The notes below the pieces were generated by a model. The model ran no database searches and was not told the DNA's origin. It saw only the letters and a program-made list of their open reading frames with translations. A stretch of 64,000 bases of DNA from Manduca sexta. Lineage: Eukaryota > Arthropoda > Insecta > Lepidoptera > Sphingidae. Where the stretch lies: NCBI RefSeq assembly GCF_014839805.1, contig NC_051123.1, forward strand, positions 11,390,727 through 11,454,726. Direction: 5' to 3'. This document shows, in pieces, positions 155 through 43,750 of this stretch (its first letter is position 1; the number at the start of each line of letters is the position of its first letter). Position numbers and translations under genes: made by a program.

Positions 155-448
155 ATCTAACCTGTAACAATGCATACCGCTATATACTTATGCATCCCTG
201 GTGCTCAACGTAGGGTAAGCAACGTGACGTTTCCCGCCACCAATCTACAACGTGAGGGCGGGGCGGACAGGCACGTTCATAATATTTATTTATTTATAAT
301 AATATTTATTTATTTATATTATATATGGTAAGGTATCCAGTGGGTATACTGAATGAAAGCTGGCGCTACAGTTGCGCTAAAATGTTATCTCCAACATTAG
401 ACGCCGCTGCAAGCTTATGTACCCCTGGTACTCAATGCAAGTTTTCAC
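155..448 (-). repeat. Array elements R155-228 and R383-448
   Basis: Two copies of the 70-bp element in R orientation. The first reads ...CCTGTAAC...TTATGCATCCCTGGTGC...AACGTGAC and lies inside the left inverted-repeat arm. The second is weaker, with CTTATGTACCCCTGGTAC conserved and the CACGT end decayed. Confidence 0.65.
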
Positions 449-1129
449 TTGTTGTCTCAATGCCGTTCGTGGATTGTTGTTAATTTTTACTACCACACCC
501 GATTCTGCCCTTTTCTTAATTGATTTTCTTAATATCATTAGTACGAAATTCATTTTGACTGAAAAATTGTATATTTCTAGAAACTGTTTATATTATTAAT
601 TTGTTGAACACTATCGGAATATTTATAGTATTCTAATATTCTATTATTATGTGGCGCCGTATTTGTTTTAGATGTTCTGTTGCATAGCGCCATCTTTGGT
701 AGAGCTATCGAGATTACAGGTCAAATGTATTGAATGAATTTATTGTCTGCTGGTAATTCGTAGGATGATTAAAATAAAAATTTAATTTTATATGTAATTA
801 CGATTCGCTCCTGATACGTTAAATAAGTTTTCATGTTCTCTGCTTCGTCCCTGACCTTGCGAAGCAGGGTTGGTTTACCTTCGCTCTTTCTTAAATTATA
901 AATTAATTTAAAAATAGTTAAAAAAATATTTATCTCCTTGAATTTATTATAACAAGACGTGTAGACATATTTCCTTTATTTACAATATTTTATAATGGGA
1001 CCCAAGTAGTCAGTCGCACTGAGTGCCCAAAATGCGATTGAATGTTATAAAATTTAAGTAGTGTAATTTGTAGTATATTGGAATATATACTACAAATAAC
1101 TGCATTCGATTCGTTTTTAATCTCCGCAA

Positions 1130-1740
1130 GTACGATCACATTTCTTCTTTCCGTTCGCAGTTAAATTGGCTCCCCATCCGCCAGCGCCGCTCGTTACGCG
1201 CGCTTACTACTCTCTATTCTCTCCTTAGGTCTCCTATACCTCCTACTTATCTATCTTCCAATTTTAGTTACCTTTGCGATGGGCATGATAGGAATTTGCG
1301 TTCGTCTACCAATCTTCTCCTGAAGTGTCCTTCGCACAGTTCTGATTTTGTTCACTCTTCCTTCGCTATCCAATCTATCCTTCTTTGGAACGCACTCCCG
1401 CTCGAAATCAGGTCGTCCTCAACACGGCTGGCTTTTAAAATGAGAGTTCGTCGATTGTTGCTGGCAGAAGTAGCAGATTCCTCTAATTGACTTATTAGTG
1501 TATTTATATATTTATTTATTTTTATATATGTATATATATGTATTTTTTTATATATATATCTATATATTTATATATGCGAGTATGTTTTAATTACATTTGT
1601 TTACTATTTCTCTTCTTATTTGTTTTTCACTTCTTTTATTATACACCTACCTCCGTCCTCTCTACACCACCCCAAGGTTGACTGGGAGAGAATGCCCATG
1701 GCATTAAGTCCGCCTGTATACCATGTGTACAAAGTGTTAA
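1130..1740 (+). pseudogene. Non-LTR retrotransposon 3' end (reverse transcriptase C-terminus)
   Basis: An open frame runs from about 1161 to the stop at 1488-1490 and begins LNWLPIRQRRSLRALTTLYS. This WLPIR..RR stretch and the later LLWNALPLEIR motif are typical of the extreme C-terminus of CR1/jockey-type LINE reverse transcriptases. AT-rich 3' sequence and an (AAATA)-type tail at about 1738-1785 follow. The catalytic domain is absent, so this is a 5'-truncated dead copy. It sits inside the inverted-repeat segment 1-2056. Confidence 0.75.
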
Positions 1741-1832
1741 TAAATAAATAAATAAATATAATATAAATAAATAAATATTTATGAACGTGCCTGTCCGCCC
1801 CGCCCTCACGTTGTAGATTGGTGGCGGGAAAC

Positions 1833-1906
1833 GTCACGTTGCTTACCCTACGTTGAGCACCAGGGGTGCATAAGTATATAGCGGTATGCATTGTTACAGG
1901 TTAGAT
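1833..1906 (+). repeat. Array element F1833 in right inverted-repeat arm
   Basis: GTCACGTTGCTTACC, then CACCAGGGGTGCATAAG, then TTGTTACAGGTTAGAT. It is the mirror copy of 155-228 across the inverted repeat. Confidence 0.7.
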
Positions 1907-2097
1907 GCTATTAGAGTAATAAAGTCAATAGGCATTAAAGTACGCGAAATATTCTTTACATTTGTAAGTTGTCATAGATTATGGCCGATTGCGTAAAAGC
2001 AATTTCGCACGAAGTAAACAAGCATCATTCGCTTTCTTACTAGCTTTGTGAAGTGAAAAACGGAAGTATGATTGAAAAAAATTGTCCTATTATTGTA

Positions 2098-2327
2098 ATA
2101 ATTTGCTTATCCTATCTATACATATTATAAACAAACACCCCTTTTCTGTGTGTCTATATGATATCAATTTTCTCAAAATGTACTGAACGGATTTTTATGA
2201 AATTTGGTATGGAAATATTTTAAGACGCTGGGAAGATATTACCTATTTTTCATTCCGAGACAATATATAGTGGCTCTTTTATCCCAGAATACATCTTCAC
2301 GCGGGCGAAGCCACGAGCAAAAGCTAG
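2098..2327 (+). mobile_element. Lep1/Helitron-like nonautonomous repeat
   Basis: Begins CTATCTATACATATTATAAA, contains ACTGAACGGATTTTTATGAA, and ends with GCGGGCGAAGCCACGAGCAA followed by AAGCTAGT. These are hallmarks of a very common lepidopteran repeat regarded as nonautonomous and Helitron-like; the family name is from memory. Confidence 0.6.
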
Positions 2328-2704
2328 TTTGCAATATAATCCAATGTATTAAAAAACTTTTCAAAAGTGTTAGCTTTTTGTAATTTATAGCCATAATTAT
2401 AATGTATAGATATCTAGCCAACAAATATTTTAATAAAGAAACTCAAACTTAAAATAAAAAACATCAAATTTGCATAAAGATTTGTAATACAGGTTGTCAC
2501 AGTCTATGTTGCAAAGTACCAACAGTGGAACACTAGTTCACATAAAGTAATTGCAATAATTTTATATTGTGTTGTCTCTACTACTGCAGATTACTACAAT
2601 CTGCTCATCACGTACTTTGGGAGTGTGGTCTCTGGCATGAAGAGCGCAATATCATGTTAAACAGTATGCAAATAACATCTGGGGTTGTATACTACATGGA
2701 CCTT

Positions 2705-2945: not shown

Positions 2946-3339
2946 TTTCTATTTGATTAATTTCGTTGCGGGATAATGACATATTAGTTTTCCCTGAGAC
3001 TCGCCGAGCTTCACTGCTCGGTGTCATAAAATGCGTGCCACTGCTGATCCTGGCTTACAGGAGTTGTAGTGGTGGGTGTGAGGGCGGGAAAGTCTCTACT
3101 ATTGCAGAAGATCGATAGACGCTGCTATTAGAATTGTTAAACTGTTTTAAGGTTTGAAGCAATTTACTTACCTATTGTATAACATTTCGTAGTTGTATCT
3201 AAAATATTTTTAAAGGCCCGCAGCGTAGAAGCATTTAGCAGATAATAAAACGAGAGACAACAAAATATTTTCAGAGAGAAGTGGAACATTGTTTTGTGCA
3301 AATCGCTTAAACGTCACTGAAGTGATGCGGAAAACCCAT

Positions 3340-3416
3340 GTCCCGTTGTCAACCTGCACAAAGTACCAGGAGAACATGTACATTGTACAAGCAGGAATGC
3401 CAACTGCCATAAATAA
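3340..3416 (+). repeat. Array element F3340
   Basis: GTCCCGTTGTCAACC, TACCAGGAGAACATGTA, then ACTGCCATAAAT. The 30-40 bp before it (ACGTCACTGAAGTGATGCGG) recur before F7522, so these two belong to one subfamily. Confidence 0.65.
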
Positions 3417-3789
3417 AATAAAAGGTTTACTTACTAATAGAATATTATGATAATAAACTTCTTTACACGATGATCCTAATTTACCGGGACTCTGTCGCTG
3501 TAGTTGCAATTATTTTTACATCTTACATTATTTACATATCTAATTCATATTTTGTCACCTGTTCGATTATTTGCAACTTCTATTCACATTGAAATTTTGA
3601 TTTCGTTGCGAGATAAAAAGATTTCTTTAACTTTCCCAGTAATTCCCTGAGCTTCAGTATACAGTGCCATTAAATTGAGGTTGGGTGCGAAGGCAGGACG
3701 GGCCCCAACGAATTGTAGTTAACGTGACGGTAAAATATATACTTTAAAAATTATTTTAAGTATAAACACGTTGTATTTAAACTGGATAA

Positions 3790-3990
3790 TTGTGGGCGTG
3801 TCTTTGTAATGCGCATGCGTATTAGACTTTTACAGTACCTAGAACGTGTAGTTTAACTAACTGCATATTGTTAGTTTAAGCTACTGAAGGCATTGCTGGA
3901 TAGTCTCACTCTCTTATATTATCCTGGGATATTTTGTACCACTGAACGTTTATGATATCCTGGTGTTTAACATGAAATTATAAACATGAC
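3790..3990 (-). repeat. Array module: NRF-1-like core plus element R3930
   Basis: GGGCGTGTC precedes GCGCATGCGT at 3811-3820. About 110 bp later comes the R element (GTACCACTGAACG...TTATGATATCCTGGTGTTT...AACATGAC). It is collinear with 12660-12880, sharing GCATTGCTGGATAG and TATATTATCCTGGGATATTT. Confidence 0.65.
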
Positions 3991-4211
3991 TCGATATTTC
4001 GTCGACCTTCTCACACAAATGTAGTCTATCTCTTACTTCGCAGATATTTTTTCTACCTGACCTTAGTGGCCGCCTAAAATCTATAGGTTATACCAACCAA
4101 TATAGTATTTAAAATAAATAAATAAATATTTATAACTTTTGTTCGCCATTAGGTCCCCGTAAATGTTTTTATCGATTAATATAACTTTCTAATATTTAAT
4201 AATATCAACCA

Positions 4212-5259: not shown

Positions 5260-5437
5260 ACGCATGCGCTCTTCATAAGTATCGCCCACCGGTCATATAG
5301 TCTAACCATACAATGTTACGAATTTACGGAGTACTGAAAACAATGTTGGATATTGATCAAATATTTTACCCTGTGGCAGTTTCTACCACTGCAGAAACAT
5401 GCATCCCTGGTACTAAATGTCGAGTTTAGAACGTGAC
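5260..5437 (-). repeat. Array module: core 5260 plus element R5371
   Basis: ACGCATGCGC at 5260-5269 is followed about 100 bp later by CTGTGGCAGTTTCTACC, ATGCATCCCTGGTACTAAAT and AACGTGAC. The segment to about 5660 is collinear with 13230-13500, sharing ACCACTGCAGA and GAAATTTCGAACGTGCCGGC versus a diverged copy. Confidence 0.65.
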
Positions 5438-5952
5438 TCATTCCCACCCTGGGAGCAACATTATTTGAATCCCTCTCTCTCCCTGCCTAGGAGAATCTAG
5501 TGAATCTCTAGTGTTTCTTGTTTTATGTCAGTTGTAGTTATAACCTGTCACCTTTACCTCTATTCCATTAGTAATAAATAGACTGGAAGGCAAATAAATA
5601 AATAAAGGCAATAGAGACACGAAATTTCGAACGTGCCGGCAAACTAGTAGTAATTTATACATATGTTTATTTTTTTACACAGCACCCTTTTTTAGTAGAG
5701 TTATATTACCAGTATTATTATTAGTAATCTCGATAACTAATAAATTATTTCCGGTAATATTTCTCACGGAATAATTTAATAAAAAACGTTATTTTATATT
5801 TTATTACAATTCTGAATTAGTTTTTTTTAAATGTTGTGTCTAATTTGCAAGCCGAGGCTCCATGTGAAGCTTATTAAAGCAAGTTATACTTAATGTTAAG
5901 AGTTGTTAACATACCAGTAGTGGCACTATCCATTGAAAACAGGACAAAATTT

Positions 5953-6017
5953 TGTCTGTGAGATTCATAGCACTGCATGCTCATGCTCTCCTGATACGTA
6001 AAATAAGTTTTCACGTT
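5953..6017 (-). repeat. Degenerate array element R5953
   Basis: CTGTGAGATTCATAGCACTG, then GCTCTCCTGATACG, then TTTTCACG. A related stretch lies at 790-1020 (CGCTCCTGATACGTTAAAT). The two neighbourhoods are diverged duplicates, 790-1020 matching 5980-6262. Confidence 0.4.
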
Positions 6018-6562
6018 TCATCCCTGGCACAGAGAGCAGGGTTGTATTTACTTTCCTCTGCTCTCAAAAACGGATTTATGTCAAAAATTTAATTAAAGTG
6101 TGTAAAATTTAACTCATTAGACAATAATAGTCTTATCAATCGGTTGACTTTAAAATTCAAAATATTACGCATTGCATTTAATTATAATTTACGCAATACA
6201 AGTCGGACATACATTTTTTGGTTTCACATATTTTACAATGCTATGGGTGGTCCTAAGTGATCTTCATTTTAATTAATAATTATAGTTTTAAAACAGCTTG
6301 TTTGATGATTTCGTTATTAGATTGTATTTAAATCTTGCTGTCCCTATACTCACCCACCCTATCCGTGGACTGTCAACTGCTAAGCGGCTGCCGGCAACCC
6401 TTTGACAGCGACTTTCATGAAAATGAAATAAAGTTTTATTTTATTGAGCATAATTGACAACACACGACAATCTATGAGATACAACTTGGAGGATACAATT
6501 TATTTTCTGATTCTGAATTTGAAGAAATTCGTTACGTCAAAAATTTATTGGTGGCGGGAGAC

Positions 6563-6636
6563 GTCACGTTGCTTACTCTACGTTGAGTACCAGGGGAGCA
6601 CAGGCATGAAGTGGTGCGTATTGTTACAGGTTGGAT
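6563..6636 (+). repeat. Array element F6563
   Basis: GTCACGTTGCTTACTC, GAGTACCAGGGGAGCA, TTGTTACAGGTTGGAT. It is a close relative of F1833, and the homology continues to about 6710, so this is a lone copy of the 1-2056 arm. Confidence 0.65.
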
Positions 6637-7179
6637 ACCACCATAGTCAAATTAATAGGCATCGAAAGTACGCTAAATATCCTTTACAATATATTTGAGC
6701 TATCGCATTGGTAAATCGCATTCGTAATATTCGTCACGGCCCACGTACCTCAGATTTGGTCCATACTAGCTTTAAAGTCTGAAGAGACAAACGGAGGCGT
6801 GATTTTATTATAGCGTAGCGAAGAAGTTCCGAATATTCTTCAATATATTAAAAAACTTCATTAAAAAAAGCAGATTATAATTTTATAAAATACACGTAAA
6901 GAAACGAGCTTTTATTTACAAAATTCCGATTTGAATAGATAAGAGCGAAAAAAAAATTATGTGTTGGAACTGTGGTTAAGCTGATAACAACAAACACGTT
7001 AATAATTGTAATAGTTTTTGCTGCGTTGTCATTAAATCTGCTACAGGTCGATAGATGTCGCTGTTAAAGGATTTCCAAACCGTTTTCATGCAGGTTCGTT
7101 TTGACGGGGTTAATATAATATTATGTATATATACATAGATTTTATGCCATTCTAAGGAAAGGAGCTGTCCCGATGCTAC

Positions 7180-7300: not shown

Positions 7301-7521
7301 TTTACAAAATGGTAATTAGCTTAATATAATAAGTATAGAGAGATTCGCTTGCCGGTTGCAGACCGAAAACAATGAGTAAATTAGTTAGCTCGCGCATAGC
7401 TGAGATATTTTTTCATACTTGCGTGCAGACAAGTTAAGCTATGTTTCGTTAGCGAGCGAATCTAGCTTAACTTAACTCGTGACCGGCGGCATAAACGTCA
7501 CTGAAGTGACACGGACAACTT

Positions 7522-7593
7522 GTCACGTCGTCAACCGGCACAAAATACCAGGAGAACATGCACAAGCAGGAGTACTAACTGCCACAGGTTAAA
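7522..7593 (+). repeat. Array element F7522
   Basis: GTCACGTCGTCAACCGGC, ATACCAGGAGAACATGCA, ACTGCCACAGGTTAAA. A close relative of F3340 including the upstream GTCACTGAAGTGACACGG. Confidence 0.7.
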
Positions 7594-7979
7594 TAACTTT
7601 ATAATAATCGGTGGCCTAGAGCAACAGAAGACAGATAACTATCATCTGTTTCAATTATGCTGTGTATTTTAACAAAGAAGGTCGATGAATTATTTGGGTG
7701 AAGGTGAATATGTATGTGGAAGGGACAAAAACAGAGGGTTTTTACAAGGTCAAAGAAGCAGCTGGCGCGAATAAAATGAGAAGTTTAAAACAGACAGTAA
7801 TCAATGTGTGTTATAAAATGCGTTTGATGTCCATTTTTAAAAAGATCTATATTTTAGACAATTATATGACTAGCATAATTTATAAATACTGAAATAAAAG
7901 ACACAAGATAAATAAATATACATACCATAGGTACACAGAGTTTATTAATTTCTTCGCTGAGTGGAACCGAAAAGCTTAT

Positions 7980-8050
7980 GTCACGTTGTCAAGCTACAGA
8001 AAATACCAGGAAAGCATAAAAATATTGGAGGACAAGTGTGTATTCCCATT
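7980..8050 (+). repeat. Array element F7980 (3' end decayed)
   Basis: GTCACGTTGTCAAGC and AATACCAGGAAAGCATAA are clear; the ACAGATTAA block is not. A lone TTTAATCTGTGAC half-element lies near 8128. Confidence 0.6.
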
Positions 8051-8394
8051 GAGGGGGCAGTGGCCACAGAATGATTTATTTAGGCACTAAGATCTGCAGT
8101 AATAAACAAAAGCTGGCTTAGAATATTTAATCTGTGACTCCCCAAATCGATAGCACCGTTGGAGCGCTCGCAGTGACATCGATCGGAGAGTAGCAGGAAC
8201 TTATGAAGACAACAAACCGATGGCTCCTACGAATATAATCGTATCCCACAATTTTGAGGTTTTTACTTTTTTGTGTTTTCTAAATGATCTAGATGAGTTC
8301 CATGAACTGTGTAAATTTGAAAGTCAAATATTGAAAATTAATTATTTTAGATTTCCGTTTTCTATCGTATGTTGTTTTTGCATGCGACGTAACT

Positions 8395-12095: not shown

Positions 12096-12196
12096 TTTAG
12101 TCGACCCTAATCATTTTCGCCATTTACACCGCTTAACATAAAGCAGGGGATTTCATTAAGCTTCTGATAACAATTCTGCATAGCTCACGTATTATT

Positions 12197-12263
12197 CTCG
12201 GACAGTGTGCACCGGTACAAGCTTATGCAGTCCTGGTATTCCACATTGAATTAAAAACGTGAC
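12197..12263 (-). repeat. Array element R12197
   Basis: GGACAGTGTGCACCGG, CTTATGCAGTCCTGGTATTC, AAAACGTGAC. No core was found beside it. Confidence 0.65.
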
Positions 12264-12697
12264 TCGATGTCCACCACCGAGTGTCACATTCAATCCTTTT
12301 TTTTGCAGCTGTAAATTGCAATAGTTAGTAATAATATCTATATAATGTAAATTGATGTAGACGAACTGAGAATTTCCAAAACACAAGAAGAAGAAGAAGA
12401 TACATGTAATAAAGTTCCAATGGTTTCAATTTTATTTTGGTTTTGTGCAGTAAATTATACATAGAGACGAAATCCGTCTGTCATGAAATCTGTACGTTCG
12501 AAAAATCATTTACGCAAGCTTAAATAAATACATTTTATGTCCTGTAACTCGGTGGCTGAGCTACACAAAATCGAATTCTGAAGTGTAGATTGTCATATAT
12601 TATATACATCACTATATACTACTTTAAAATATATTTTAGGTTATAATGAATTGTGTTTATTTAAACTGTGGGCAACTTGTTGGCCTGCTTTTGTACT

Positions 12698-12875
12698 ACG
12701 CATGCGTACTAGACTTTCAGTACCAAGCCCGTATAGTTTAACTAACCGCATATTGTTTGTTTAAACTACTGAGAGCATTGCTGGATAGCGTCGCTCTATT
12801 ATATTATCCTGGGATATTTTATACCTCTGTACATCTATGCATGCCTGGTACTAAAGATCGGGTACCAAACGTGAT
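12698..12875 (-). repeat. Array module: palindromic core plus R12809
   Basis: The perfect palindrome ACGCATGCGT at 12698-12707 is followed about 100 bp later by an R element with CTATGCATGCCTGGTACTAA and AAACGTGAT. It is a diverged duplicate of the 3790-3990 module. Confidence 0.65.
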
Positions 12876-12941
12876 TCGAAATTTCCATCTCCCTCAAATC
12901 CCAATTTTCCCACTCATCAATCACTAAAGTTTGGGAATGTT

Positions 12942-13140: not shown

Positions 13141-13314
13141 ACTACGCATACGAACGTTGCCATATGCGTCGACAGCTTTAGCATTAATATGCCCGGTATT
13201 CATGAAGTAAATAATACATACAAAGTTTCTCTCAAACAATTTGTTTCCTGTGGTAGTTTCTACCACTGCAGATATATGCATCCCTGGTACTAAATGTCGA
13301 GGCCGAAACGTGAC
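13141..13314 (-). repeat. Array module with decayed core plus R13247
   Basis: ACGCATACGA near 13143 occupies the core position. R13247 reads CCTGTGGTAGTTTCTACC, ATGCATCCCTGGTACTAAAT, AAACGTGAC. It is a duplicate of the 5260-5437 module. Confidence 0.6.
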
Positions 13315-14063
13315 TCATTCATATTCTGCAGACTATTTGTCCCCTTCCCCTCCTCCTCTGCCTAGCAGACGCCGCCCCAGATAAGAGAATCACTGTAACT
13401 CTAGTTATAGTTAAAATCATGTCAGGTTAACGTATTCTATTAGAATGGACTATAAAATAAAGGCACACCATGAAATTCCGAACAGGCTGGCATAATTGTG
13501 TCGACATACGAGGGATAATCATCACCTATAGTCGCCGCTATCTGAGTGCCGCTCTACTTACCAACATTTCCAGATGAGTGAGTCACTTTGTAATAATCTC
13601 CTTAAATATATAGCAAAAGAAAAGAGAATTCATAAAAAAAAATCTAGGGTGGACTTCTTAAAATTTATCTTTAATTTTATTTTATCCCTAAACTAGAATT
13701 ACGCAGCACTGAATAACGAAGCTTAGAGGTAAGAATGACATTCTTAAAAAAATACACGAATCTAAAGAACTTTTAAACTGCGCAATTTCGTATTATTTTG
13801 TCTTATAAGTATTTTAATTTAAACACTCTCTTCAGTTGGACTCTATCGTGTTATAAATCTGTATATACACGCCAAGACAAAAGTTTAGACATCTTGTTAA
13901 GAATTAAACGGAATAATTAAACGGAAGGAGGGTTTTAAATTTAAGAATAGTTACAAGTTTATATGGAGAAGAAAAGCAGAAAGCTTATATTTTTATAAAG
14001 TATGTATTAGAATTATAACAAAATTGATTGGCAGTGTGAACGGGCGCGTGGTATTTATTACTT

Positions 14064-14239
14064 ACGCAGGCGCAATACAAATTTTCAACACCATCAATAT
14101 AGTTCAAAGAAATTGCAAAGAGTTTATTCGCATTCGGGAACGAACTTCACATTTATGTTGTTCTAATATTTACCCTGTGACAATGTATACCATCAAATAT
14201 GAATACTCTCCTGGTAGTAAGATTCAACTTGCACGTGAT
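14064..14239 (-). repeat. Array module: core 14064 plus R14168
   Basis: GGTATTTATTACTT precedes ACGCAGGCGC at 14064-14073. The R element follows 104 bp from core start to element start (ACCCTGTGACAATG, TATGAATACTCTCCTGGTAG, TGCACGTGAT). A 122-codon frame across it is not conserved in sister modules and is treated as chance. Confidence 0.65.
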
Positions 14240-14410
14240 CTCTGCCTCCATCCAATAAATCCCAAAGGCCACGGTGGTTGGACCACGAAAGTGAAAGGAC
14301 AGGAGGCGGGAAATCGTGGAATTATTTCTGCAATAATCATCCCAGAAGAAGTGAAATCTCCCGAATGCGGAGGGAGAGGTCCTCTAATCTGAGGTCTGAA
14401 CCAAGAATAA

Positions 14411-14482
14411 GTAACACGTGCAAAGTGACTGTAAGCACTAGGAGTGCATAAACACACGTAAGTTTGATAGGTCACAGATTAA
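14411..14482 (+). repeat. Array element F14411
   Basis: GTAACACGTGCAAAG, CACTAGGAGTGCATAAA, GTCACAGATTAAG. It lies back-to-back (divergent) with R14168 across about 170 bp of non-array DNA. Confidence 0.7.
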
Positions 14483-15589
14483 GTTGTGAGCATCAAATAG
14501 ATGCACAGATAAGCTAGTACGTAAAACGTACGTAAACGTAAGTAGACAAAAATTTATTTAGTTTTTATGTACATTTATGTAGTTTTTTTTTACTTAGGTT
14601 ACAAAGTATTGTACAGAAAAAGAGTTTTTAATTCGACGAAGTAATTTGTCAGTTTAAGTGTTGCCAGAGCTACAGGAATTTTCTAGTTATGAGGCAAGTA
14701 TCAATATCTCTATAAAGACATTTACAAGTTTATTTGTAAATTAATAAGTATTCAATAGAGATTGATTTGTGTAATATAACCACCGTTGTTTCGCGCAAAA
14801 TTATCGCTCATTTATATTCGTGAAAGAGAACTGATGCTACAGAATGAAATAATAGTATTTATAGGTTTGAACTTAATATTGAATAGACAAAAATAAGAGT
14901 TTTGGAGGTAACCTAAGCTCATATATCAATTAAATAGTATAAAGAATTCAAACAATATATCATAAAACTGACCCGTTTAATAGGCAACATTTATGCGTTT
15001 ACGCGTTTATGCGTTTGAATTGAAAATCCTAGTATGGTAGTATTAAAAAATGGTGTGTTTATTATTTACTATTACTACTTAGCTTCTGAAAAGATAAAAT
15101 TGTCAAAGTTTAATTTTACTAGAGATTAAGAGATGAACTATTCAGACATTTGCACTATTTGACTATGCAGCGTGTTAGTGAATTCAAACTTTTTAGGGAG
15201 AACAATAATAATGCTTATAATAATTGTGAGGAGATTCCTCGTTTTGAATCCCTAACCGCCGGTGGCCTGGGTCTTGAGCTTCGTCATTGGAGGGTCATTA
15301 TTTTTTTTATATATTTTTATATGCATGTTTTTTTTTTAAATGTATATGTAAAAATGTAAAAAAAAAATACCTTTAAAATAAAGAGAATTGACCATGCTTA
15401 TAATAATATAATATCAGCACTGTATTATAATTATATACTGTCCCAATGTTGGGCACGGGCTTTCTCTACTATTAATAATGCTTGGTTTCTACAAATGCAA
15501 CTCTTCATTATATATCACAGCATAGGATAGTTCAGTGGATATAATTTGCTGATGTGCCGAAAGATCTAACGCAGCATCGTTGGAGTATT

Positions 15590-15655
15590 TGATCTGTGAC
15601 AATAGACATTACTATTTGTCTATGGGATCCTGGTGTTTAAAACTAATCTTCACCT
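15590..15655 (-). repeat. Array element R15590
   Basis: GATCTGTGACAATAGAC, CTATGGGATCCTGGTGTTT; the CACGT end is lost. A SINE-like fragment (CCCAATGTTGGGCACGGGC) lies upstream at 15420-15480. Confidence 0.5.
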
Positions 15656-16223
15656 GTCTGGGTCCGTCCCAGGGGGATTGGGAAAACAAAAGAACCCTGA
15701 TTGATATATATAATTCCTATTATTATTATCTTTTAACACGCTTTTATTAGCTTGGGTTGTATCTATGTATGTATGTATGTAACGGAATCTTTGAGCTCAA
15801 TTTTCACCAATTTCCAGAAATCTGATTAATTTGAAACTTTACACACGTATCAAGGACCGATGACAATGCAATAATTTGATAAGAGTTTCCCATTATCCTT
15901 ATTATAGTTATTCTGTGTACCTGCATTTTAACAAACTTAATATATTTTTAAGGAAACTTTTACAGCAAAACATCGTTTTTATTACATATTCAGTGGATTT
16001 TTTATGTATTATACGTGTATGGCGTCTTCTTTATCTTAATATGACGGCAAGCGGTATGTATATAGGAACATAAAAAACGTAATTATTTTTGCGTAGAATA
16101 AATGGAAAATCAATTAACGTTTATTGCAATAAAGAGTTCTTAATTATAATGATACTTTGCAAAGCATTAACATTACATTACAGAAATTCAATCTGTATAT
16201 TTCTTTATATTTATGCACTCCTG

Positions 16224-29215: not shown

Positions 29216-29540
29216 CATTCCTTGGTTTAAATCGTTCAGACAGATTTTTCCTGAATTCAGGAGGAGCATGTTCTAGAGACATAATTTCTGCCGGGATTAT
29301 ATTATTCTTGCAACCAAAGATGTAATAATAAAAAAGAATTATAATTTTACGGTGAGATTGTGATAAAAAAAATACTAGATAAGACAATAGAAAATAGCAC
29401 TGCCAACAACGAATAAATCTCAGATAACCTTAAAAACCGAGGAAAAAAACACACAAAACATTATTAGAATAAGAAAAAAAACAATTTAAAACCCTTATAT
29501 ATCCGATTTGCGTGGCCCCTTTCACTTTGATTACAGCATT

Positions 29541-29606
29541 TGAGTAAATTGTACCATTATAGTACCAGGAGAACATTACTGTAAGATCACTGGGACAGGG
29601 TATAAT
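29541..29606 (+). repeat. Degenerate array element F29541
   Basis: AGTACCAGGAGAACATTA and TGGGACAGGGTATAAT are kept; the CACGT end is lost. Downstream TTTCTTTAGGTTGTGTTG and GGCGCCCT match the inner parts of the 25034 unit. Confidence 0.5.
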
Positions 29607-30014
29607 ATATTAGAGCAACATAAATGTAGAGTCGGTTGCAGAATGCAAATTAACTTTTGCTATTTCTTTAGGTTGTGTTGATGGCGCCCTATTGTTGTGC
29701 GTTTGGGTACTACTTTGAGCTATAACTAACTAACTTAACTTAACTTAGTACTATAGTTTACGCATACTATATTTATTTAGTGAGTTGAATTGGACCTTCG
29801 TTTTGTGGAGGCTTCTTTAAAAGGGTGATTGCGACAGCGAATTCTCGTCGTAATGCCTTAGTTTTAAGTCTTAGAAGCACAGCACGAATTAATTAAAACC
29901 TCTCGTTTTGGAGGTCAAGGGCCACTTTGGTTCGCTGAGCCAACAGAGTAAGTAGTAACCTCTGGACAAGCCAGATTCGAGAAAATCGTTTTACAAAAAA
30001 AAAAACAACACTAT

Positions 30015-31067: not shown

Positions 31068-31243
31068 GAACACGTGTAAACTGATATTTAATACCAGGAA
31101 AGCATACTAGTACTTTGGTTTGCGCTGTCACAGATTGAATATCAGACGAGCATAAGTGTTGCGTCGCTCCAAGAATGTGAACATAACGCATGCAATTTCT
31201 TTAATCTGTTTTGTCACCTCAGGGTTTTGTGGTGCGCCTGCGT
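31068..31243 (+). repeat. Array module: F31068 plus core 31234
   Basis: CACGTGTAAACTGA, AATACCAGGAAAGCATAC, TGTCACAGATTGAAT; core GCGCCTGCGT at 31234-31243 then GATAAATAACACACGGCCCG. It lies only about 255 bp upstream of the first detected CRAL-TRIO exon. No R partner is seen before the gene. Confidence 0.7.
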
Positions 31244-32493: not shown

Positions 32494-33493
32494 TTGACTG
32501 TTACATTTGGGTATTTGTAAAATATAAATGTATCCGCCATATTTCGGCTGTGTCTTCTTTTATACAGAAACTAAAAAATTTGTTTTATCAAATTACACAG
32601 CCTGTATAATTGTTTGGGTTAGTTGAAAATTTCCTTCAAAGCTTTCCTATATTTTACTGCTTGTCTATAATGTGAAATTTTAAGGGGTATGATAATATTA
32701 TTCATACTTATCTACTGCACTTATTTTATGTGTAATATTTAGATGATTTTTATAATTATAATAATAAAAAAATTAAGAAATTTCGTAAGTGAGATTAATT
32801 TGAAATAATTTTGATAACGACAGTATGCAATTTTTGACATTTGAATTTTTTTTGTAAAATCTGTATTAAAATATATTTTTATTTAAGTTAAATTTGAAAA
32901 ATACGCAAATGAAGAAGGTATTTTTTTTTGTATTGTTTTAGTTGTTAATTGCTTATTGTTATGTGTAATAAAAAGTGTTACAGTTTTCACGTGTTTGCTT
33001 TAAAACTACGGATTAATTTGGTTGATCATGGGACTCTACACAAGCGACTCCGACTACCTGCTTAGAATCGAGGAAACAAGTATTCAACTATGTATTTAAT
33101 AACCAGCGAATGGCAATATTGACTCAAAAAGAGATCACCTAATGGCTAAACCCCTTTCAAATTTCACATACAAGTATTCCTCACATGTAGCGTCTGTTCA
33201 AGAAAATTCACACAGGTTACATTCTAATTTATAATCTAATAGTGGATTACATAAACTCAAGTATACTGGACTTATGGAAACGTCCGTTCAACACGTTCAA
33301 ATTTGATTAATTCTCGAAAATTGAATGAAAAAATGTAATTTATTTAAAATTGAATTTGATTTAATATTGTAAAATTGTTTTCAAATAACTCCCACACTCG
33401 ACGTAGTTTGTCATGTGGGGGTAATAAGTAAAGATGGAACAGTTTTATCTATATAACGAGAACTATAACAGGACTTGTCTGAGCAGTACTCCA

Positions 33494-33564
33494 TTACAAA
33501 TTTGTGTCTTGCGTTCCTCTTTGTCTTTATGTACTCCTGGTGATTATCGGGAATTGACAACGTG
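33494..33564 (-). repeat. Array element R33494
   Basis: CTTTATGTACTCCTGGTGAT and AATTGACAACGTGGA; the CTGTG block has decayed. It is the first of the GTCACGTTGTCAA-type run that continues to 43.75 kb. 32500-33490 holds the 3' region of the CRAL-TRIO gene and nothing else identified. Confidence 0.55.
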
Positions 33565-34254: not shown

Positions 34255-35059
34255 GTCACGTTGTCAATCGACGAAAAACACCGGGAGTGCATGAGGATGT
34301 AAGAGGACAAATTGCCACAGATTAAATATTTTAGTTATATGCAGGTCATTGAATAGCCAGTGGCCCCGTAAATTGTTCAATCAATTCATTTAACCTGCAT
34401 GCATAGTAGTAGAAAACTCTACGATAAATCGATGGTGTAACTGATGGTGCGGCTACAGCTACAGAGAATTGGAATACTGCCACGTATTGATGCTACGGCG
34501 CTACGAACATATAAAAATAAAAACTTTTTTGAGCGTTCCTTCAGTTTTAGATAATGAAATCCTTGAATTAAATTAATATGGAAATATTTCATGGAAATTA
34601 AATGTTTGTTACTTGCATTCCATGGGTTTTACGAAATTTTTTAAGATTAAATAAGTTTGTAAAACTGTGAGCAGACACTAGCAGTCACGGTAGGTATTTA
34701 TGAGGAAAATATGAATGATCTAGCCAAGTTCCAGTATAATGTAGTTCACACAAAGATTTAGCTCGCGAATTATCCTTCGTATTTTTTTTTCCTCAACAAA
34801 AGTCAAACTGTCATTGTCCAAAATAAAGTTGTAAGAATTTTATTATACTAGTGCAGGATTTGACGTGTCTATGTGCCAAAAATATTACGTTATATATGGC
34901 GTTACGAACGTTTTCGTAGCATCGTTACAGATTGTATGCGTTGGTGCAGCTGTTAGTTGTCTACTGATTTGTGCAGCGTCATAAAACTGCAATCTGTGGC
35001 ATTCTGTTATCCTACACCCTCATGCACTCCTGGTATTGCAGGCCCATTAACAATGTGAT
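34255..35059. repeat. Convergent array pair F34255 / R34990
   Basis: F: GTCACGTTGTCAATCGACG, CACCGGGAGTGCATGAGG, TGCCACAGATTAAAT. R: GCAATCTGTGGCATTC, CTCATGCACTCCTGGTATTG, TTAACAATGTGAT. Aligned head to tail the two are ungapped over about 70 bp and roughly two-thirds identical; the 660 bp between them are unrelated to other units. Confidence 0.75.
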
Positions 35060-35141: not shown

Positions 35142-35995
35142 GCACGTTGTCAATTGACGCTAAACAACCAGGGATGCATGAGTATGTAGATGTACAGAAT
35201 GCAACAGACTAAATAATTATGAGAGCGTTTTTCACAAGAGTTATCAGCAGATAGCTATCAACTGCTTCAATAAATACAAACTATGGTCCTATTAAAGCTA
35301 TCATGTTACCGGCTAGCAGCCCCATCGGTCATAAAAGTTAGTAGCGTGTGTTTTTCATGGAATTCGTAATACCAGTAGTATCAATTAACAACGGTTACGT
35401 AGAAAAATGAATTAGGAGGTCCTAAAGTTGAAATAAAATGTTTAATTTTAGGCTGGAAATCATTAGTGACCATAATAACAACGAAATCAAAGAATAATTT
35501 GTACCAAAATATAGACAGTGGTGTTCAGAACAGTTCGAAACGCTATAACGCCATCGACTCGCGAAACACCCATGAAAATAAATTAAATCACAGTTGAATA
35601 TATTTTAAAAATATAGTGACCGTGTATAATAATGATGAAATATATTCATCTGTTGCCTTTTGTACTCCTACAGGGTTATGCGCTTCTGGTAATTCACGTC
35701 GATTGTAAACGTGACCGTAGCTTTCCGAGGTCGGAGCGCTGTTTGGAGCCAGCCTTTCCGGAGGAGTGATAAAACGAACGCTCAAGCTCGAATATCTAAA
35801 AAAGTGGCGCCAAAATAGAGCCAGCGCAGCTGCAAGCGTGTACCACAGCGTTATCGCAACTCGAAAATTTATTGATAGAAACACAGAACTACAAAATAAA
35901 AAAAAAATCTATTATTCCATTAATTTTAAATTCTTACGTTACGTATCCTAAGCCCTTATATACTTCTGGCGGTTCATGTTGGTGGAAAATGTGAA
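35142..35995. repeat. Array elements F35142, R35646 and degenerate R35933
   Basis: F35142: GCACGTTGTCAATTGACG, ACCAGGGATGCATGAG, GCAACAGACTAAAT. R35646: ATCTGTTGCC, GTTATGCGCTTCTGGTAATT, GTAAACGTGACC then GTAGCTTTCCGAGG. R35933: TATACTTCTGGCGGTTC, a decayed tandem R copy. Confidence 0.65.
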
Positions 35996-36093
35996 GGGCG
36001 AAGTTTTCTTTCGAGCCAGCTTGAATAACCGCGAAGCTTTCTTTCACTGATCGATCGATCTTACAACACCGCCACGCCGTCGGTGGTGGCTCA

Positions 36094-36592
36094 TGTCATG
36101 TTACCAGTTAAAGCAAAATACTAAGAGTATATGGAGGGGTAAGAGTAGTTTATATCACAGAGTAAATAAATTATGGAGTTTAAAAACAGGCATTGAATGA
36201 AAATATACCGTAGTAACCATAATATTATAATTCAGTGATTATAGGATATAGAAAAAAGTGTCAGTTACTTAAATCATTTTTTGTGCGTACAAATTTAAGT
36301 AAGCTGTATTTTTTATTCGGAGTTTACCACCGGTGAAGGTCTTAAAGAAAACGCTTGCACTGATACTAGTAATAATAATGGCGGCGCAGATCCATTGCGA
36401 TAATTTTTTTCAACGGCGTCATCGATTATCTAATGTGATAGAAATAGCTTAAAATTATTGCAATAGTTCCTAGCTTTCTTCTGCATGCTAATTCCACAAC
36501 ATATTCCAGAATTATTATTATATGTCTTGTGACATTGTAGACTCCTACCCCCTCATGCTCTCCTGTTATTTCGCCTCGTTTGACAACGTGAC
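36094..36592. repeat. Convergent array pair F36094 / R36524
   Basis: F: GTCATGTTACCAG, AATACTAAGAGTATATGG, ATCACAGAGTAAAT. R: CTTGTGACATTGTAG, CTCATGCTCTCCTGTTATTT, TTTGACAACGTGACTC followed by GAGCCTTCCGAG. Confidence 0.65.
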
Positions 36593-37010
36593 TCGAGCCT
36601 TCCGAGTGTCTGGCGCGAATGCTCATTGAAGCCGTTATGGATTGATACTACCACCACCTAGGAATTGCTTACTTAGAATATTCTAAATAACGCGACTGGT
36701 GGTAAGTCGATATCGTTTAATTTTGAAAACATCAAATTTAATCCAAAAACCAACGCATCAGTGACGTGTATTTTGTGCGACATACTTAGCACACTGATTC
36801 TCGTATCCATAGTGAAATTGTTACTCGTTTTTATTTGTATATTGTTTTCTACTAGAAAAGGTACAGACTTACAGGTACGCTGTTACGGACCCTGGCACTA
36901 ATACTGTTTTTTGTAGTTACTGTTACCGAAATCGGCGCGGTTACTGTTATTGTGTAAGGTACTTGAAGAACAGCGGCCTTATTCTCTATCCCGCACGTTA
37001 TTTTGACAGT

Positions 37011-37092: not shown

Positions 37093-37141
37093 CGTTCGGG
37101 CCCTGCTTATCCAAATAGGAAGTTAGTTTAGCCAGTTTCAA

Positions 37142-37806
37142 GTCACGTTGTAAGTCGACGCAGTATACTAAGAGTACATGAACATATAGGGGTAGGGACA
37201 GTTGGCATAGAATAAATTGTAATGATGTTCTGCTCTACAAAATTTGTCAGTATAGAAGAAACCACTGCTGTGATAAATTAAACTATCTTATTTATATCTG
37301 TGAATCGACGGAGCTGCAAGGCTTGCAATGGTAATGAAAATGGTAGCGATGCGGCCTTCGCTAGTTCAATGAATAGCGACTGCAGTGTATATATGATACT
37401 TTTCAAATGGATAGACAACATTATGAGTATTTTGTTTTATTGTAGCCATATTAAGGCCCCAAGATAAATATTATCTTCACTGATTTATGGTGTTGATGTT
37501 CACTAAATATTAAATTAGATCTTGATTCATAGTTTTTGTTCTCAGTATTATTCTTACATAGATAATCGAAACAAGTAGTTGTTAGTGTGCATTTTTAAAA
37601 CATTTGTTGCTATCATTTGAAGTTCTAGTAGTGCTATAAGCTGTTCTGTTTAATAATAATCGAACACACAGCTTAAATTATTTGATATAGTTTTGAATTG
37701 TCTACTGAAGACCCGGATAGGAAAGTGTATCATAAATTCGTTTATTGCATTCAGTACTCCATAATCACCATGCTCTCTTGGTATATGACGTCGGTTGAAA
37801 ACGTGA
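37142..37806. repeat. Convergent array pair F37142 / R37738
   Basis: F: GTCACGTTGTAAGTCGACG, ATACTAAGAGTACATGAA. R: ACCATGCTCTCTTGGTATAT, GGTTGAAAACGTGACC then AGAGTCTTTCAAGAG. Confidence 0.65.
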
Positions 37807-37849
37807 CCAGAGTCTTTCAAGAGTTTCGATGCTTCTTCATTAATTCACA

Positions 37850-37913: not shown

Positions 37914-37914
<1 letters not shown>

Positions 37915-39048: not shown

Positions 39049-39300
39049 CTAAGAATATTTAAAGTGAGAATGTTGTCTACTTATTCCTCCAAATCCATGC
39101 CCGATCCCAGTGTTTTGAGCTGGATTCTCAAAGTGATAGGATATTTTTACTACTGGGCGGCGTTTTCGCGATTTGAAATCTTGGTGACTTGGGACATACA
39201 TATTATGGACTTTGCGATCTTTGTTTTGCGGACGCGCGTCTAACGCTACTCTGAACAGAGGGTGGTCTTTAGGCTCCTCGATAGCTTCGCTTTCAGTCAC
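39049..39300 (-). other. 83-codon orphan frame starting inside an array element
   Basis: The minus frame opens at the GTGAC end of F39296 and encodes a basic, Pro-rich peptide (SHQDFKSRKRRPVVKI; ends GGISRQHSHFKYS). Composition is more protein-like than other frames in the array, but no family is recognised and the frame is not shared by sister elements. Probably chance. Confidence 0.15.
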
Positions 39301-39367
39301 GTTTTCAATCTACGCGAATCATTAGGAGTGCATCAGAACGAGGAGTTCGAAATATCACAGATTAAAC
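39296..39367 (+). repeat. Array element F39296
   Basis: GTCACGTTTTCAATCTACG, ATTAGGAGTGCATCAG, TATCACAGATTAAAC, preceded by AGCTTCGCTTTCA, the mirror of the AGAGCTTTCCGAG tail of R copies. Confidence 0.65.
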
Positions 39368-40092
39368 TATGATCTTGCTATCTATGAGGGTTCATGAGTA
39401 TACAATTGAAAATGCACCCTATAAATTTATGCTAGGGCAATACAGCTTAAACGTGTTGGAATAGTTTGCACTCTACACTGTTCATCCTTATAGCACAATA
39501 TTTATAAATATTACCGTCTGTATTAGTTACTTCTGCGACCTTCTGTATTCCTATTATAGTATTTATACCGATTGGAAACGACTGGAGCTGTGCGCTTTGA
39601 TGTTGTCCAACGATGGCAGATTGTTCTCAAATGAATGATGACTGTAATGAAATGTTTGTTGTCCGTGACAAATTCAAAATGTTTAGGAATAAGTTTAATA
39701 ATAACGTTTGTATTGTTCGTACGATGTTCCTAGCACTGTGAGGGGGTCGACACATCACATACGCGCACTTGTTAGTTAGTCACTTTGCAGCATCTAAGGG
39801 GTCGGCACGCAGCTGACGAGGTCGGCGCGTCGTCAACACACAGATACCTGATCTACAAAGTTTATACGGACCACTTCGTGCGCGACTCCAACTCGCACAT
39901 CTCTGGTTTTTTCATTTAATCAGTTCACTGAATGCATAATGAATAGTTTGTAAAACTATTGTTCTAAAATAAAGGAGATTCCCACGTTGAGGGTCCATCA
40001 TCATCGTGTACGTTAATGATTAGAAAAACAAAAATTCTTATTTGTTCACTGTATCTGCCACAATGTATCTTGCACGTACAGTCGGTCAATGC

Positions 40093-40247: not shown

Positions 40248-41144
40248 GGTTAAGAAGTTATTAATGCAGAATACCAGGAATTCACGAAGATGCAGGAGTA
40301 CCATGTAGCCACAGATTAAGTATAATTGTTATGGAACCCAATGCTCAAAATCTATCAGTAGTAGGTATTATCTATCAGTAGAAATAGTATTTGTTTGGAC
40401 TCTAATATAATCAATTTCAAATATTTATAGCGGCATTGGTAAAGTATGTTTTCATGTATTGTCCAAAATAATACCTATATATTAGTGACGACGAAGAATA
40501 GCACCTCCATAACACAGGTAATTTTGCTTACTTCGATTATAAAATAATTTTCTTCTGTTTCATAATTTCATTTCTTAATTGTGTTCGCACTGCCAGAAAA
40601 ACGCTCGTCCAAACACTCAGAAATATAAGTTCTGGATTAGGTCTAACATTTTTTTAATATTAAAGATACCTCATTTTTTCTTTAGTTTGGACCTCAGTTG
40701 GACAAACATATACCATTTTTTTAAGCGACACCTGTAGTTTGCTCTTTGAATTTCTATATTTATATCAAAATAATTATGACATTCTGTATATAGGTATAAT
40801 CGATTTCAATAGGGATTAGATGTTGCAGTGTTCAGTCTAAAAAGGTCACTTATACAAAACATTTAAATGCATTTTAGTAAACTAATTCATAAATTATTAT
40901 CAGTATACGAAAATCAATTAATAAAAAAAATCTTAAGGTGAAGTAGTATTCAAATATTTTATAATGCCAACTCATTATTGATTTTGAAATCTGAATAAAA
41001 AACAGGTAAAATAACCATACCGGAGCGGTCTGTGGAATACTGGCAACTATTCTGCTGTTGATTCAAATATAATGTAATCTATAGCACGCTGAACTCCTAT
41101 ATTCTTATGCACTTCTGGTATTTTGGTTCGTTTTACAACGTGAC
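40248..41144. repeat. Convergent array pair F40248 / R41073
   Basis: F: AATACCAGGAATTCACGAAG, TAGCCACAGATTAAG; the CACGT end is lost. R: GTAATCTATAGCACG, CTTATGCACTTCTGGTATTT, TTTTACAACGTGACG. The interior is AT-rich and otherwise featureless. Confidence 0.6.
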
Positions 41145-41261
41145 GTGGCCGCCAGGGGGCTGGTCAATTCGCGAATCTAGCTCGTTAATTAAATACGAAA
41201 ATTCAGTTTTGAGCTCATGACGTCAATGGTTTTTGGATAGAAAAGATAAAAAAAAACAGCG

Positions 41262-41464
41262 GTCACGTTACCAATTGGTGAGAAATTCCAGGATTGCATG
41301 AGAGGATTTAGGAGCACAGATTGCAACAGATTAAATTATATTGATAGGTTGTATTGTATAAATTATCAGTGTAACCAAATTTGTTCTATAAAATTCGATC
41401 TGCTGCATTTTGTACTTCCAAGTCTTATGTAATCCTGGTCATTTACATATAATGACAACGTGAC
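41262..41464. repeat. Closely spaced array pair F41262 / R41396
   Basis: F: GTCACGTTACCAATTGG, TTCCAGGATTGCATGAG, GCAACAGATTAAAT. R: GATCTGCTGCATTTTG, CTTATGTAATCCTGGTCATT, AATGACAACGTGACTCC. Only about 60 bp separate the pair, so it could fold into a hairpin. Confidence 0.65.
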
Positions 41465-42184
41465 TCCATATTGGGGATTCACTTGCATTCAATGTTTATT
41501 ATTATGGCTACAATTAGTAGCCCCGTCTGTGCCATGTATGCGCCCCATGTCTTTTCTGTGTGGCCCGCGCGTAACATTCGCGTAAACATAAGAAATCATT
41601 AAATAAACCGATCACTTAGGATTACAGGCGACGGTGGCCACTCACAAACGGTTATGCGTTCTACACAATCGTGCATGCCCGTACTCACTTATCATGTTTC
41701 TTCGTGTGATTTTGATTACGACGACGGGGGCCGAATAGGTACCTTATAAATAAATTAATATTAACTGGTCTCCTATCAGGGGACCAATGGGCACTTGAAT
41801 AGGTGATGAATCTACAACTTTTATTCTAGGGTACGAGTTTTAGGGGACGAGTGGGTCCGAGACCGATAATAATGAACAAGGGCAGTACAGCTATGACGGA
41901 ATGCTTTGAATACTGGGCTAAGCCTCTTGGAAAATAATTAAATAGTAACACAGAATGACAATCACTATGCTCAAATTGTTACAGGAGTTGCGTAGCAGTC
42001 GTGCCTGTGAGAAATATCTAAAATGTCTGAGACACTGTTTAATTGGTAGAACACAAGCATGCAAGTATTACACTTGCAACGCAACTAATAATTACGAGAA
42101 AAGTGGTAATCTGTTGGAGCAAGGTCCGAGGAGTTCGGTGGATGTCGCAGGCATTCCAATTGCAGATCCTTTAGTTTAGCGACT

Positions 42185-42772
42185 GTCTGCTGTACAATGT
42201 GGATTCAGCTATTGCAACGTCCTCCTTTGATTATTGTACAGGAACCATTTTTCATCACAGGTAATGATTCGATTTAAAATCCCTTTATTATCATGTCAGT
42301 TGAGCAATGTAACGCAGCATGCAACGCGTGTTTGCTGGCTTAATTTACTCAATTCATGAGAAAACCACCTTTCAAGTTTTTTGACTTTCCCGATTGGCTT
42401 GAAGTGGATAAAAACACCTCATCACTCACATCCAAGCCTGTAGCCAACTCTGAAGTAGTTTGGGATTGATCCGCTTCCACAATAACCTTTAATTCCTCAT
42501 TATCTACCTTGGTCTCTGGCCGTTCACTGGGCTTGTTCCGAAGGTCGAAATTTCTAGAACGAAAACATTGGAACAAAAAAAGTACCGTGTTTTTTTGGAC
42601 CACCAGCGCCATGCATATCGTTAATTTTTAGAGCTGTTTCTGCAGCACTGGTGCCGGGATGGAACTCACACTCGTAATTATAGCGATATTTCATGTTTTC
42701 CATTCCAAAGAAAAACTGATCAGGAAAAATAAAAGACTGTTTTCGATACTCAAACGTATCAGTTAAATGCAT
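42185..42772 (-). pseudogene. mariner-type transposase remnant
   Basis: The minus strand in two frames gives EFHPGTSAAETALKIND, then QCFRSRNFDLRNKP.., DNEELKVIVEADQSQTTSEL and ATGLDVS. This is the order of the N-terminal helix-turn-helix pair of mariner transposases. Further on RIITCDEKWFLYNN matches the first catalytic-Asp motif (usually TGDEKW). Frame shifts and stops break it, and the later catalytic residues are not found. The left boundary is approximate. Confidence 0.75.
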
Positions 42773-43086
42773 TTATGAATTTGATTTTGGAAATCATACC
42801 CAAAGAGGAGATATTTCAGATCAAAGTGGCCAATACGACAAAACGCCAATTTCATTAATATAAAGGACATAACTAATATAATATTTTTCGTATCAAGCAA
42901 AAAACAAAAAATATTTATAACATTAGCGCTCGATATCACTTAGCAAGCAAAGCAGCATGGAAAATGGAAAATCTGATCTATTTCTTTAGTGACTTTTTAT
43001 TTCTTAAATTTTTGTTAGAGATTCTGTAATTTCGTCCGATAATTTGATAGCAGCAAGTAACAAACACGCCCCTCTGTTTCTCTCTG

Positions 43087-43323
43087 GTCACGTGTTGAAT
43101 CGACATGGAATATCGGGAGTACATGGGGATGTAGGAGTATATTTGTAAAATAGTTTTATTTCAAAGCATTGCAATTGGGAATACAGTGTAAATTTATTGA
43201 AGCCATAGTTAGCTGTATATCGACAGTATATCCGAAAAACATTAGAGAGTTATTTAATCTGTGATGGCGTGAGCTCCTACAGTCTCATATGTTCCTGGTG
43301 ATTCATGTTTATGAAAAACGTGA
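43087..43323. repeat. Array pair F43087 / R43252
   Basis: F: GTCACGTGTTGAATCGACA, TATCGGGAGTACATGGGG. R: ATTTAATCTGTGATGG, CTCATATGTTCCTGGTGATT, AAAACGTGACCAGAGCTTTC. Confidence 0.65.
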
Positions 43324-43679
43324 CCAGAGCTTTCTGAATGAGAGAGCACTTCAATTAATACGCATGTATATGTGTATACTCGTGGTGTGTGCCGATCAGC
43401 TGATTTGCTGATATTAATTATAGATAAAAAATAATCATAATATTTTAAACTCAAGATCCACACATAAGGATAAAAAATATTTATGGATGCACTGTCAAAG
43501 TTCTTTAAAAGAAAAAGATATGAGGGATTCCATAAGGCTGTGTTTAGCCTTCCGGAAACTTCACTCATCAAACGAAATAGTAAGTTGTCATGTAATTTTG
43601 TTTTTTCGAAAATATTAAATGTTTTTCAAAAGGTGTTACCAGTTAGACTGATTACTTTTGTGCAGCACCGTACCGTAAC

Positions 43680-43750
43680 AATTTTTAGTAAGTTTGGTAC
43701 TTCCACTTCCTTATGTGTTCCTAGTATTTTATGTTCACTGACAACGTGAC
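43680..43750 (-). repeat. Last array element R43680
   Basis: CTTATGTGTTCCTAGTATTT, CACTGACAACGTGACC, then TGTGTTTTCAGATGG. No further copies are seen to the right in the remaining 20 kb. Confidence 0.6.

Follow-up and report, generated by a model that had tools for sequence, protein, structure and literature searches.

What is the short noncoding element that recurs, dozens of times and in both orientations, through the left two thirds of a 64,000-nucleotide stretch of the Manduca sexta genome (assembly GCF_014839805.1, contig NC_051123.1, forward-strand positions 11,390,727 to 11,454,726; hereafter the window)? An initial annotation had described about 54 copies of a 70-bp element in 43.6 kb and had proposed old transposable element termini, a regulatory array or many small transcription units as explanations. 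The reading preferred here, to which a probability of roughly 35% is assigned, is that of a cluster of directional cis-regulatory modules, each about 170 bp long, that is old and expands locally; the modules would be promoter-like and perhaps belong to small noncoding transcription units.

The array itself was recovered with a profile search. An nhmmer profile iterated from nine seed copies gave 55 matches at E<0.05, all within 158-43750, and to the right of 43750 this 70-bp profile gave just three matches, each with E above 3. In the window 51 of its matches scored at least 20 bits and 52 at least 15 bits; none of 50 dinucleotide shuffles produced a match of 15 bits or more (top score 12.5). 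An extended profile (model span -15..+190) raised scores to as much as 89 bits against a shuffle maximum of 6.8 bits, added three degenerate copies (2471+, 29558+ and 39580-), and found no match with E<1 at 43.8-64 kb. The final tally was 58 units, 27 on the plus and 31 on the minus strand, spanning 81-43757, and includes a duplicated pair of partial copies and a weak copy standing back to back with another. Scores of at least 15 bits were reached by 55 of the 58 and three fell below; no match at that threshold occurred in the last 20 kb of the window or in 50 shuffled windows. The two-orientation array first described is real and had been somewhat underestimated. In cross-validation, a model built from 27 copies left of 33 kb recovered 15 of 18 right-side units (E<1e-3), and the reverse model, from 17 right-side copies, recovered 17 of 40 left-side units, two of them recent duplicates of other matches. 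The probability that all 55 matches fall in the left 68% of the window would be 8e-10 under independence, which does not hold because some of the matches are duplicates. Because the array starts right at the window's left edge, 58 units is a lower bound; an inverted duplication at 96% identity (2-322 vs 1740-2056) touches that edge, and the array may therefore extend beyond it. Recent duplicates and weak copies were removed before the extended-model, word-enrichment, fold, spacing and first-stop, and Mantel analyses.

The conserved unit is noncoding, directional and about 170 bp long, with conservation in the extended profile reaching about +165, and the 70-bp size originally given was not borne out. 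Its blocks follow the order GTCACGTT (or AACACGTG), ACCAGGAGTGCAT, CACAGATTAAAT, TCAGTA and an inverted TTTAA.CTGTG. Block 1 is GTCACGTT.TCAA at 0-14, or alternatively AACACGTG; block 2 is ACCAGGAGTGCATAAG at 26-42; block 3 is TGTCACAGATTAAATA at 57-74; block 4 is TCAGTA near +105; and block 5 is CAAT..TTTAA.CTGTG near +130-145. Some subfamilies carry in addition CGC[CA]TGCG near +165 (in a single 15-bp bin, 9 occurrences vs 0.13 expected across 45 units). The near-constant block spacing noted earlier was confirmed: among 46 measured units, ACC and the T of TAA are offset by 43 in 27 and by 37-67 in 18, the offset being absent in one, and the spacing of blocks 2 and 3 is identical in 27 of 46. 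Blocks 1 and 2 were recognized 24, 25 or 26 bases apart in 9, 19 and 11 units, respectively; the AACACGTGCAAACTG variant marks the subfamilies with a spacing of 24, and the remaining units are spaced by 25 or 26. Block 5 repeats block 3 in inverted form, with a signal at about +121 to +135 (z 6.3, 41 units without a close facing neighbor). A palindrome of the whole unit was considered and rejected, as a mirrored inverted partner exists for block 3 alone: none was found for block 2 (top z 2.5), and the nearly palindromic block 1 has inverted matches on itself and at +49 and none at the mirrored place. A separate observation concerns the words TATAAA, TTAAAT and TATATA, which, pooled over 45 units, occur 13, 13 and 8 times per 15-bp bin vs 3.0 expected at 255-300 bases past the 70-bp part; one or two microsatellites perhaps account for this.

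The blocks have changed more slowly than the sequence around them. Over 25 aligned pairs, mean identity rose from 53-57% in the sequence before -12 to 78-86% in the three blocks; it was 70-71% in the intervening spacers and 64-72% from +72 to +240. BLAST alignments of diverged units start mostly 0-35 bp before block 1; 17218- and 28474+ share about 150-170 bp further upstream, and recent duplications share more. For 13 sister pairs, with the conserved columns for each pair defined from all other clades, mismatches numbered 140 of 675 in conserved vs 239 of 625 in unconserved columns, in the same direction in 12 of the 13 (the sister groups 41262/41464, overlapping, and 16251/33566, one very weak, were excluded). 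The difference holds for the first 70 bp by themselves (P 0.0002). In a stricter comparison of gap-free stretches from pairwise alignments of nine close pairs, which have members in common, the counts were 67/451 conserved vs 96/432 unconserved mismatches (P 0.005). The initial claim that blocks stayed recognizable while flanks diverged is supported by both comparisons. Slower change of the conserved columns is clear in distant pairs and borderline in the closest, and is suggestive, though not proof, of constraint on individual copies; profile detection itself favors copies with intact blocks.

Three features lead to the promoter-like reading: a near-fixed TCAGT(A), an E-box-like block 1 and local evolution in the fashion of a gene cluster. 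TCAGT is an arthropod initiator motif according to PMC1876469. It occurs 15 times vs about 1.8 expected, and TCAGTA 11 times vs 0.5 expected, at 15-44 bases past the 70-bp part (45 units), and lies at a near-fixed distance in several clades. Block 1 contains CACGT[GT] in 41 of the 58 units. Units become less similar the farther apart they lie in the array (Mantel r 0.21, P 0.0002, 46 units), also with one copy per sister clade (r 0.26, P 0.0002, 33 units), which points to local birth of copies. A tree of 54 rows, with four recent duplicates retained, shows long terminal branches, with a median of 0.43 changes per column, and does not separate forward (F) from reverse (R) copies; most copies are probably old. 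Gene clusters grown by local duplication are common. To our knowledge, and as a matter of judgement, clusters of regulatory modules with hardly any gene recognized between them, themselves still recognizable amid diverged surroundings, are not.

On the promoter-like reading, proteins would bind the DNA of each module at near-fixed spacing, with predicted sites at the E-box-like block (GTCACGTT or AACACGTG), at ACCAGGAGTGCAT and at two inverted copies of CACAG.TTAAA around TCAGTA. Each module would most likely act as a small RNA polymerase II promoter whose predicted start, near TCAGTA, lies roughly 105 bp from the beginning of the unit; its transcript would be short and noncoding. Modules at 34-44 kb stand in facing pairs. 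Judged from the letters alone, both a regulatory array and many small transcription units, as originally proposed, would fit. If the units do start transcription, the array would supply dozens of naturally occurring variants of a single promoter and would be a candidate factory of noncoding RNA in a model insect.

Several observations weigh against promoters. An intact TCAGT at +92 to +122 is present in just 16 of the 58 units. An AT-rich box lies, by our own count, 34-41 bp before the A of TCAGTA, a distance too long for a canonical TATA box. Downstream, neither polyadenylation signals nor splice donors peak consistently. The difference between sister pairs is not significant beyond the 70-bp part by itself (P 0.18), and in the six close pairs without common members it is 44/306 vs 61/296 (P 0.053), so that constraint among recent copies appears modest. 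Lastly, some copies form sharp-edged composites that look like mobile DNA.

These composites bear on a second reading, which we hold to be possible but doubtful, in which the units would be ends, facing inward, of elements in an old and non-autonomous family of DNA transposons resembling miniature inverted-repeat transposable elements (MITEs), with long, complex, transposase-bound ends; each facing pair would be one element, and the cluster would reflect an insertion trap or hops within the locus. Two facing units form a composite, about 385-395 bp long with a unit at each end, which is found at 16841-17224, 19734-20129 and 22216-22610 and again, as a recent duplicate, at 25023-25417; unrelated flanks begin at nearly one place in each copy, the behavior expected of a mobile segment. 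The palindromic unit pairs at 41257-41469 and 43082-43331 resemble fold-back elements. Orientation at 34-44 kb also fits mobile ends, with perfect F/R alternation of 16 among the 17 units and a total of 16 orientation runs (shuffle P 0.0005). The convergent pairing first described stands for that segment and fails as an array-wide rule: P is 0.04 for the full set of 58 and 0.39 for 12-34 kb, and at 0-12 kb orientation runs are fewer than expected. Facing neighbors, however, are no more alike than others, with mean identities of 0.611 for facing, 0.607 for diverging and 0.611 for tandem neighbors (17, 17 and 20 pairs); at 34-44 kb the values are 0.533 for facing (8), 0.511 for diverging (7) and 0.499 for all opposite pairs (72), a slight excess at most. 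The longest flanking direct repeat averages 5.5 bp vs 5.2 in 500 control pairings, most copies being diverged, with a single 8-bp match (16857/17218) among 17 pairs. The two ends of the composite differ from each other in their outermost 10-16 bp, no transposase domain above threshold was found with Pfam in 30 open reading frames (ORFs; 28 at 1-43.8 kb, one at 46.9 kb and one from the SDR cluster described below), no match with E<1 occurs in the following 20 kb, and relatedness tracks position. Ordinary terminal-inverted-repeat transposons are disfavored because facing neighbors are not more alike, target duplications show no clear excess and relatedness is positional; transposon ends are kept in play because the composite copies are sharp-edged. 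Old transposable element termini, as first suggested, are weakened and retain the composites and the 34-44 kb alternation on their side. MITEs and Helitrons of Lepidoptera (PMC9033116 and PMC3789558) resemble the units as short noncoding repeats with facing pairs and sharp-edged composites; here, in contrast, target-site duplications show no clear excess, facing ends barely exceed other pairs in likeness, all units lie within 44 kb of the 64 kb, and relatedness tracks position. If the units were mobile-element ends, the locus would be an unusually dense and confined graveyard.

Recent copying in the array has stayed local, in the composites above and in one longer piece. An inverted duplication of 2.47 kb (19680-22153 vs 25472-23004) has 99.7% identity and a spacer of about 850 bp, and is either a very recent event or an assembly artefact. 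The 58 units are not independent, since some copies are recent duplicates.

A coding origin was also weighed. The units could be exon relics, pseudogene tails of a lost multicopy gene, with the 70-bp part encoding a peptide ...PG.H...V....ATD followed by a stop. The consensus is indeed open in one frame with a stop precisely at the end of strong conservation, and the first stop falls on that terminal codon in 16 of 46 units. Against this, six stops were observed vs 8.0 expected from column shuffles (P 0.24, 27 units), the terminal stop occurred 19 times vs 18.4 in shuffles, pN/pS in that frame was 1.04 with the second codon position the most variable, and the variable spacing given above leaves the frame of block 1 inconstant. 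Having failed the stop, frame and substitution tests, a coding exon or pseudogene is close to refuted and is regarded as highly improbable. RNA hairpins, microRNAs and hairpin RNAs were likewise rejected, as there is no overall fold signal. RNAalifold on 44 units gave 0.0, no conserved fold; mean fold z ranged from -0.46 to 0.05 over four stretches (49 units), the lowest value, -0.46 (standard error 0.20), being that of the complete unit. Block 5 inverts block 3, yet no longer conserved stem was seen, and no unit had an Rfam match at gathering score, weak matches lying far below. A viral origin was also set aside: a 36-letter degenerate pattern had no match in IMG/VR, and among 25 stretches there with a 15-mer the best scored 13.7 bits with the 70-bp profile, about the contribution of the 15-mer itself.

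Two further known systems invite comparison. The silkmoth chorion locus (PMC4639761) has shared bidirectional promoters with a TCACGT hexamer. Like the array, it is a large lepidopteran cluster with both orientations, promoter-like modules and local duplication, and TCACGT is found in block 1 of 27 of the 58 units, the likeness being drawn for this hexamer. In contrast to that locus, between most modules no gene is recognized here, and the neighbors are CRAL-TRIO and SDR genes; the non-chorion insert described in PMC4639761 holds other genes. Identity with the chorion locus described there was rejected: Pfam found no chorion family in the 30 scanned ORFs, and no Gly/Cys-rich ORF was seen by eye among 70 stop-to-stop ORFs of 75 or more amino acids. 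A literature search found no description of the array and covered subscription literature thinly, and is hence weak evidence of novelty.

At the 21U-RNA loci of Caenorhabditis elegans, one upstream motif serves each tiny transcription unit, and many small clustered noncoding loci would similarly share one promoter motif here. The motif of the array is much longer, however, and nothing in the sequence points to a 21-nt product. A bolder version of the promoter-like reading seems distinctly unlikely. In it the locus would comprise 58 or more tiny noncoding transcription units that work autonomously, all carrying a copy of the common 170-bp promoter; they would be subject to local birth and death, and facing pairs might supply small or double-stranded RNA.

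The neighboring genes bring in a further reading, unlikely in our estimation, in which the units are sites for an architectural or silencing protein (e.g. a multi-zinc-finger factor) and the array is an untranscribed insulator or enhancer cluster near CRAL-TRIO and SDR genes. Several blocks at near-fixed spacing in a directional, noncoding and local unit would suit such a role, as would the genes to the right of the array, with CRAL-TRIO exons at 47.0-49.9 kb and an SDR cluster at 55-63 kb. The enrichment of TCAGTA at a near-fixed distance would instead be expected at a start site more than at an insulator, and 58 sites in 44 kb far exceeds any boundary element known to us. Two partial CRAL-TRIO genes are complementary, with last exons on the left and first exons on the right, and neither is complete in the window: exons covering about residues 5-180 lie at 47050-49914 (+), and those from about residue 131 onward at 31496-32490 (+), inside the array, with one unit about 280 bp ahead of them. 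Four SDR ORFs of about 250 amino acids lie at 54954-62862 in both orientations (two of the four were searched); the ORF at 57223-58068 corresponds to O3G_MSEX005493 with 100% identity over 88% of the query.

Table 1. Units of the array in the window. Scores are from the extended profile unless otherwise stated.
Feature	Position	Strand	Score (bits)
Unit	81..233	-	68.0
Unit	347..443	-	29.6
Unit, near-copy of 81-233 unit	1829..1976	+	62.7
Degenerate unit	2471..2580	+	15.1
Unit	3332..3433	+	38.9
Unit	3830..3997	-	62.1
Unit	5275..5442	-	74.9
Unit	5870..6013	-	40.2
Unit	6558..6721	+	69.2
Unit	7517..7686	+	85.5
Unit	7972..8154	+	55.8
Unit	12115..12271	-	68.3
Unit	12724..12879	-	66.0
Unit	13169..13318	-	50.0
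Unit, CACGTG subfamily	14075..14246	-	63.1
Unit	14407..14488	+	37.9
Unit	15501..15647	-	40.3
Unit	16223..16362	+	59.1
Weak partial unit, back-to-back	16173..16224	-	8.6
Left unit of composite 16841-17224	16850..17015	+	33.5
Right unit of composite 16841-17224	17048..17217	-	70.0
Unit	17850..18018	-	88.6
Unit	18888..19010	-	49.8
Unit, CACGTG subfamily	19425..19583	+	62.7
Left unit of composite 19734-20129	19743..19903	+	44.4
Right unit of composite 19734-20129	19959..20117	-	60.1
Unit	21586..21755	-	83.1
Partial unit	21981..22031	+	14.0 (70-bp profile)
Unit of composite 22216-22610	22228..22386	+	63.2
Unit of composite 22216-22610	22439..22604	-	43.6
Partial unit, duplicate of 21981-22031	23126..23176	-	14.0 (70-bp profile)
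Unit, duplicate of 21586-21755	23402..23571	+	
Unit, duplicate of 19959-20117	25035..25193	+	
Unit, duplicate of 19743-19903	25249..25409	-	
Unit	27187..27347	-	53.7
Unit	27617..27787	+	87.3
Unit, CACGTG subfamily	28475..28644	+	60.2
Unit	29054..29219	-	39.4
Degenerate unit	29558..29695	+	22.0
Unit, CACGTG subfamily	31070..31217	+	65.8
Unit	33434..33564	-	36.3
Unit, top score	34248..34416	+	89.2
Unit	34903..35059	-	65.2
Unit	35143..35293	+	74.3
Unit	35577..35723	-	56.3
Unit	36086..36250	+	32.9
Unit	36419..36600	-	77.1
Unit	37138..37308	+	66.3
Unit	37651..37814	-	68.1
Unit	39295..39459	+	64.5
Degenerate unit	39426..39580	-	18.9
Unit	40264..40382	+	43.4
Unit	40988..41152	-	76.7
Unit of 212-bp palindromic pair	41257..41413	+	61.9
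Unit of 212-bp palindromic pair (partner of 41257..41413)	41315..41469	-	50.8
Unit	43082..43247	+	40.5
Unit	43169..43331	-	75.4
Unit, last of array	43610..43757	-	43.1

Other features were recorded within and beside the array. The ORFs at 1074-1487 and 9457-9873, which had no Pfam match above threshold, resemble by eye fragments of reverse transcriptase from long interspersed nuclear elements. A marginal transfer RNA match lies at 30137-30201 (+; 29.8 bits, threshold 29), with none reported by ARAGORN. A 123-bp repeat is present in three tandem copies at 38337-38705, and related pieces occur at 7218-7295, 52.6 kb and 54.2 kb.

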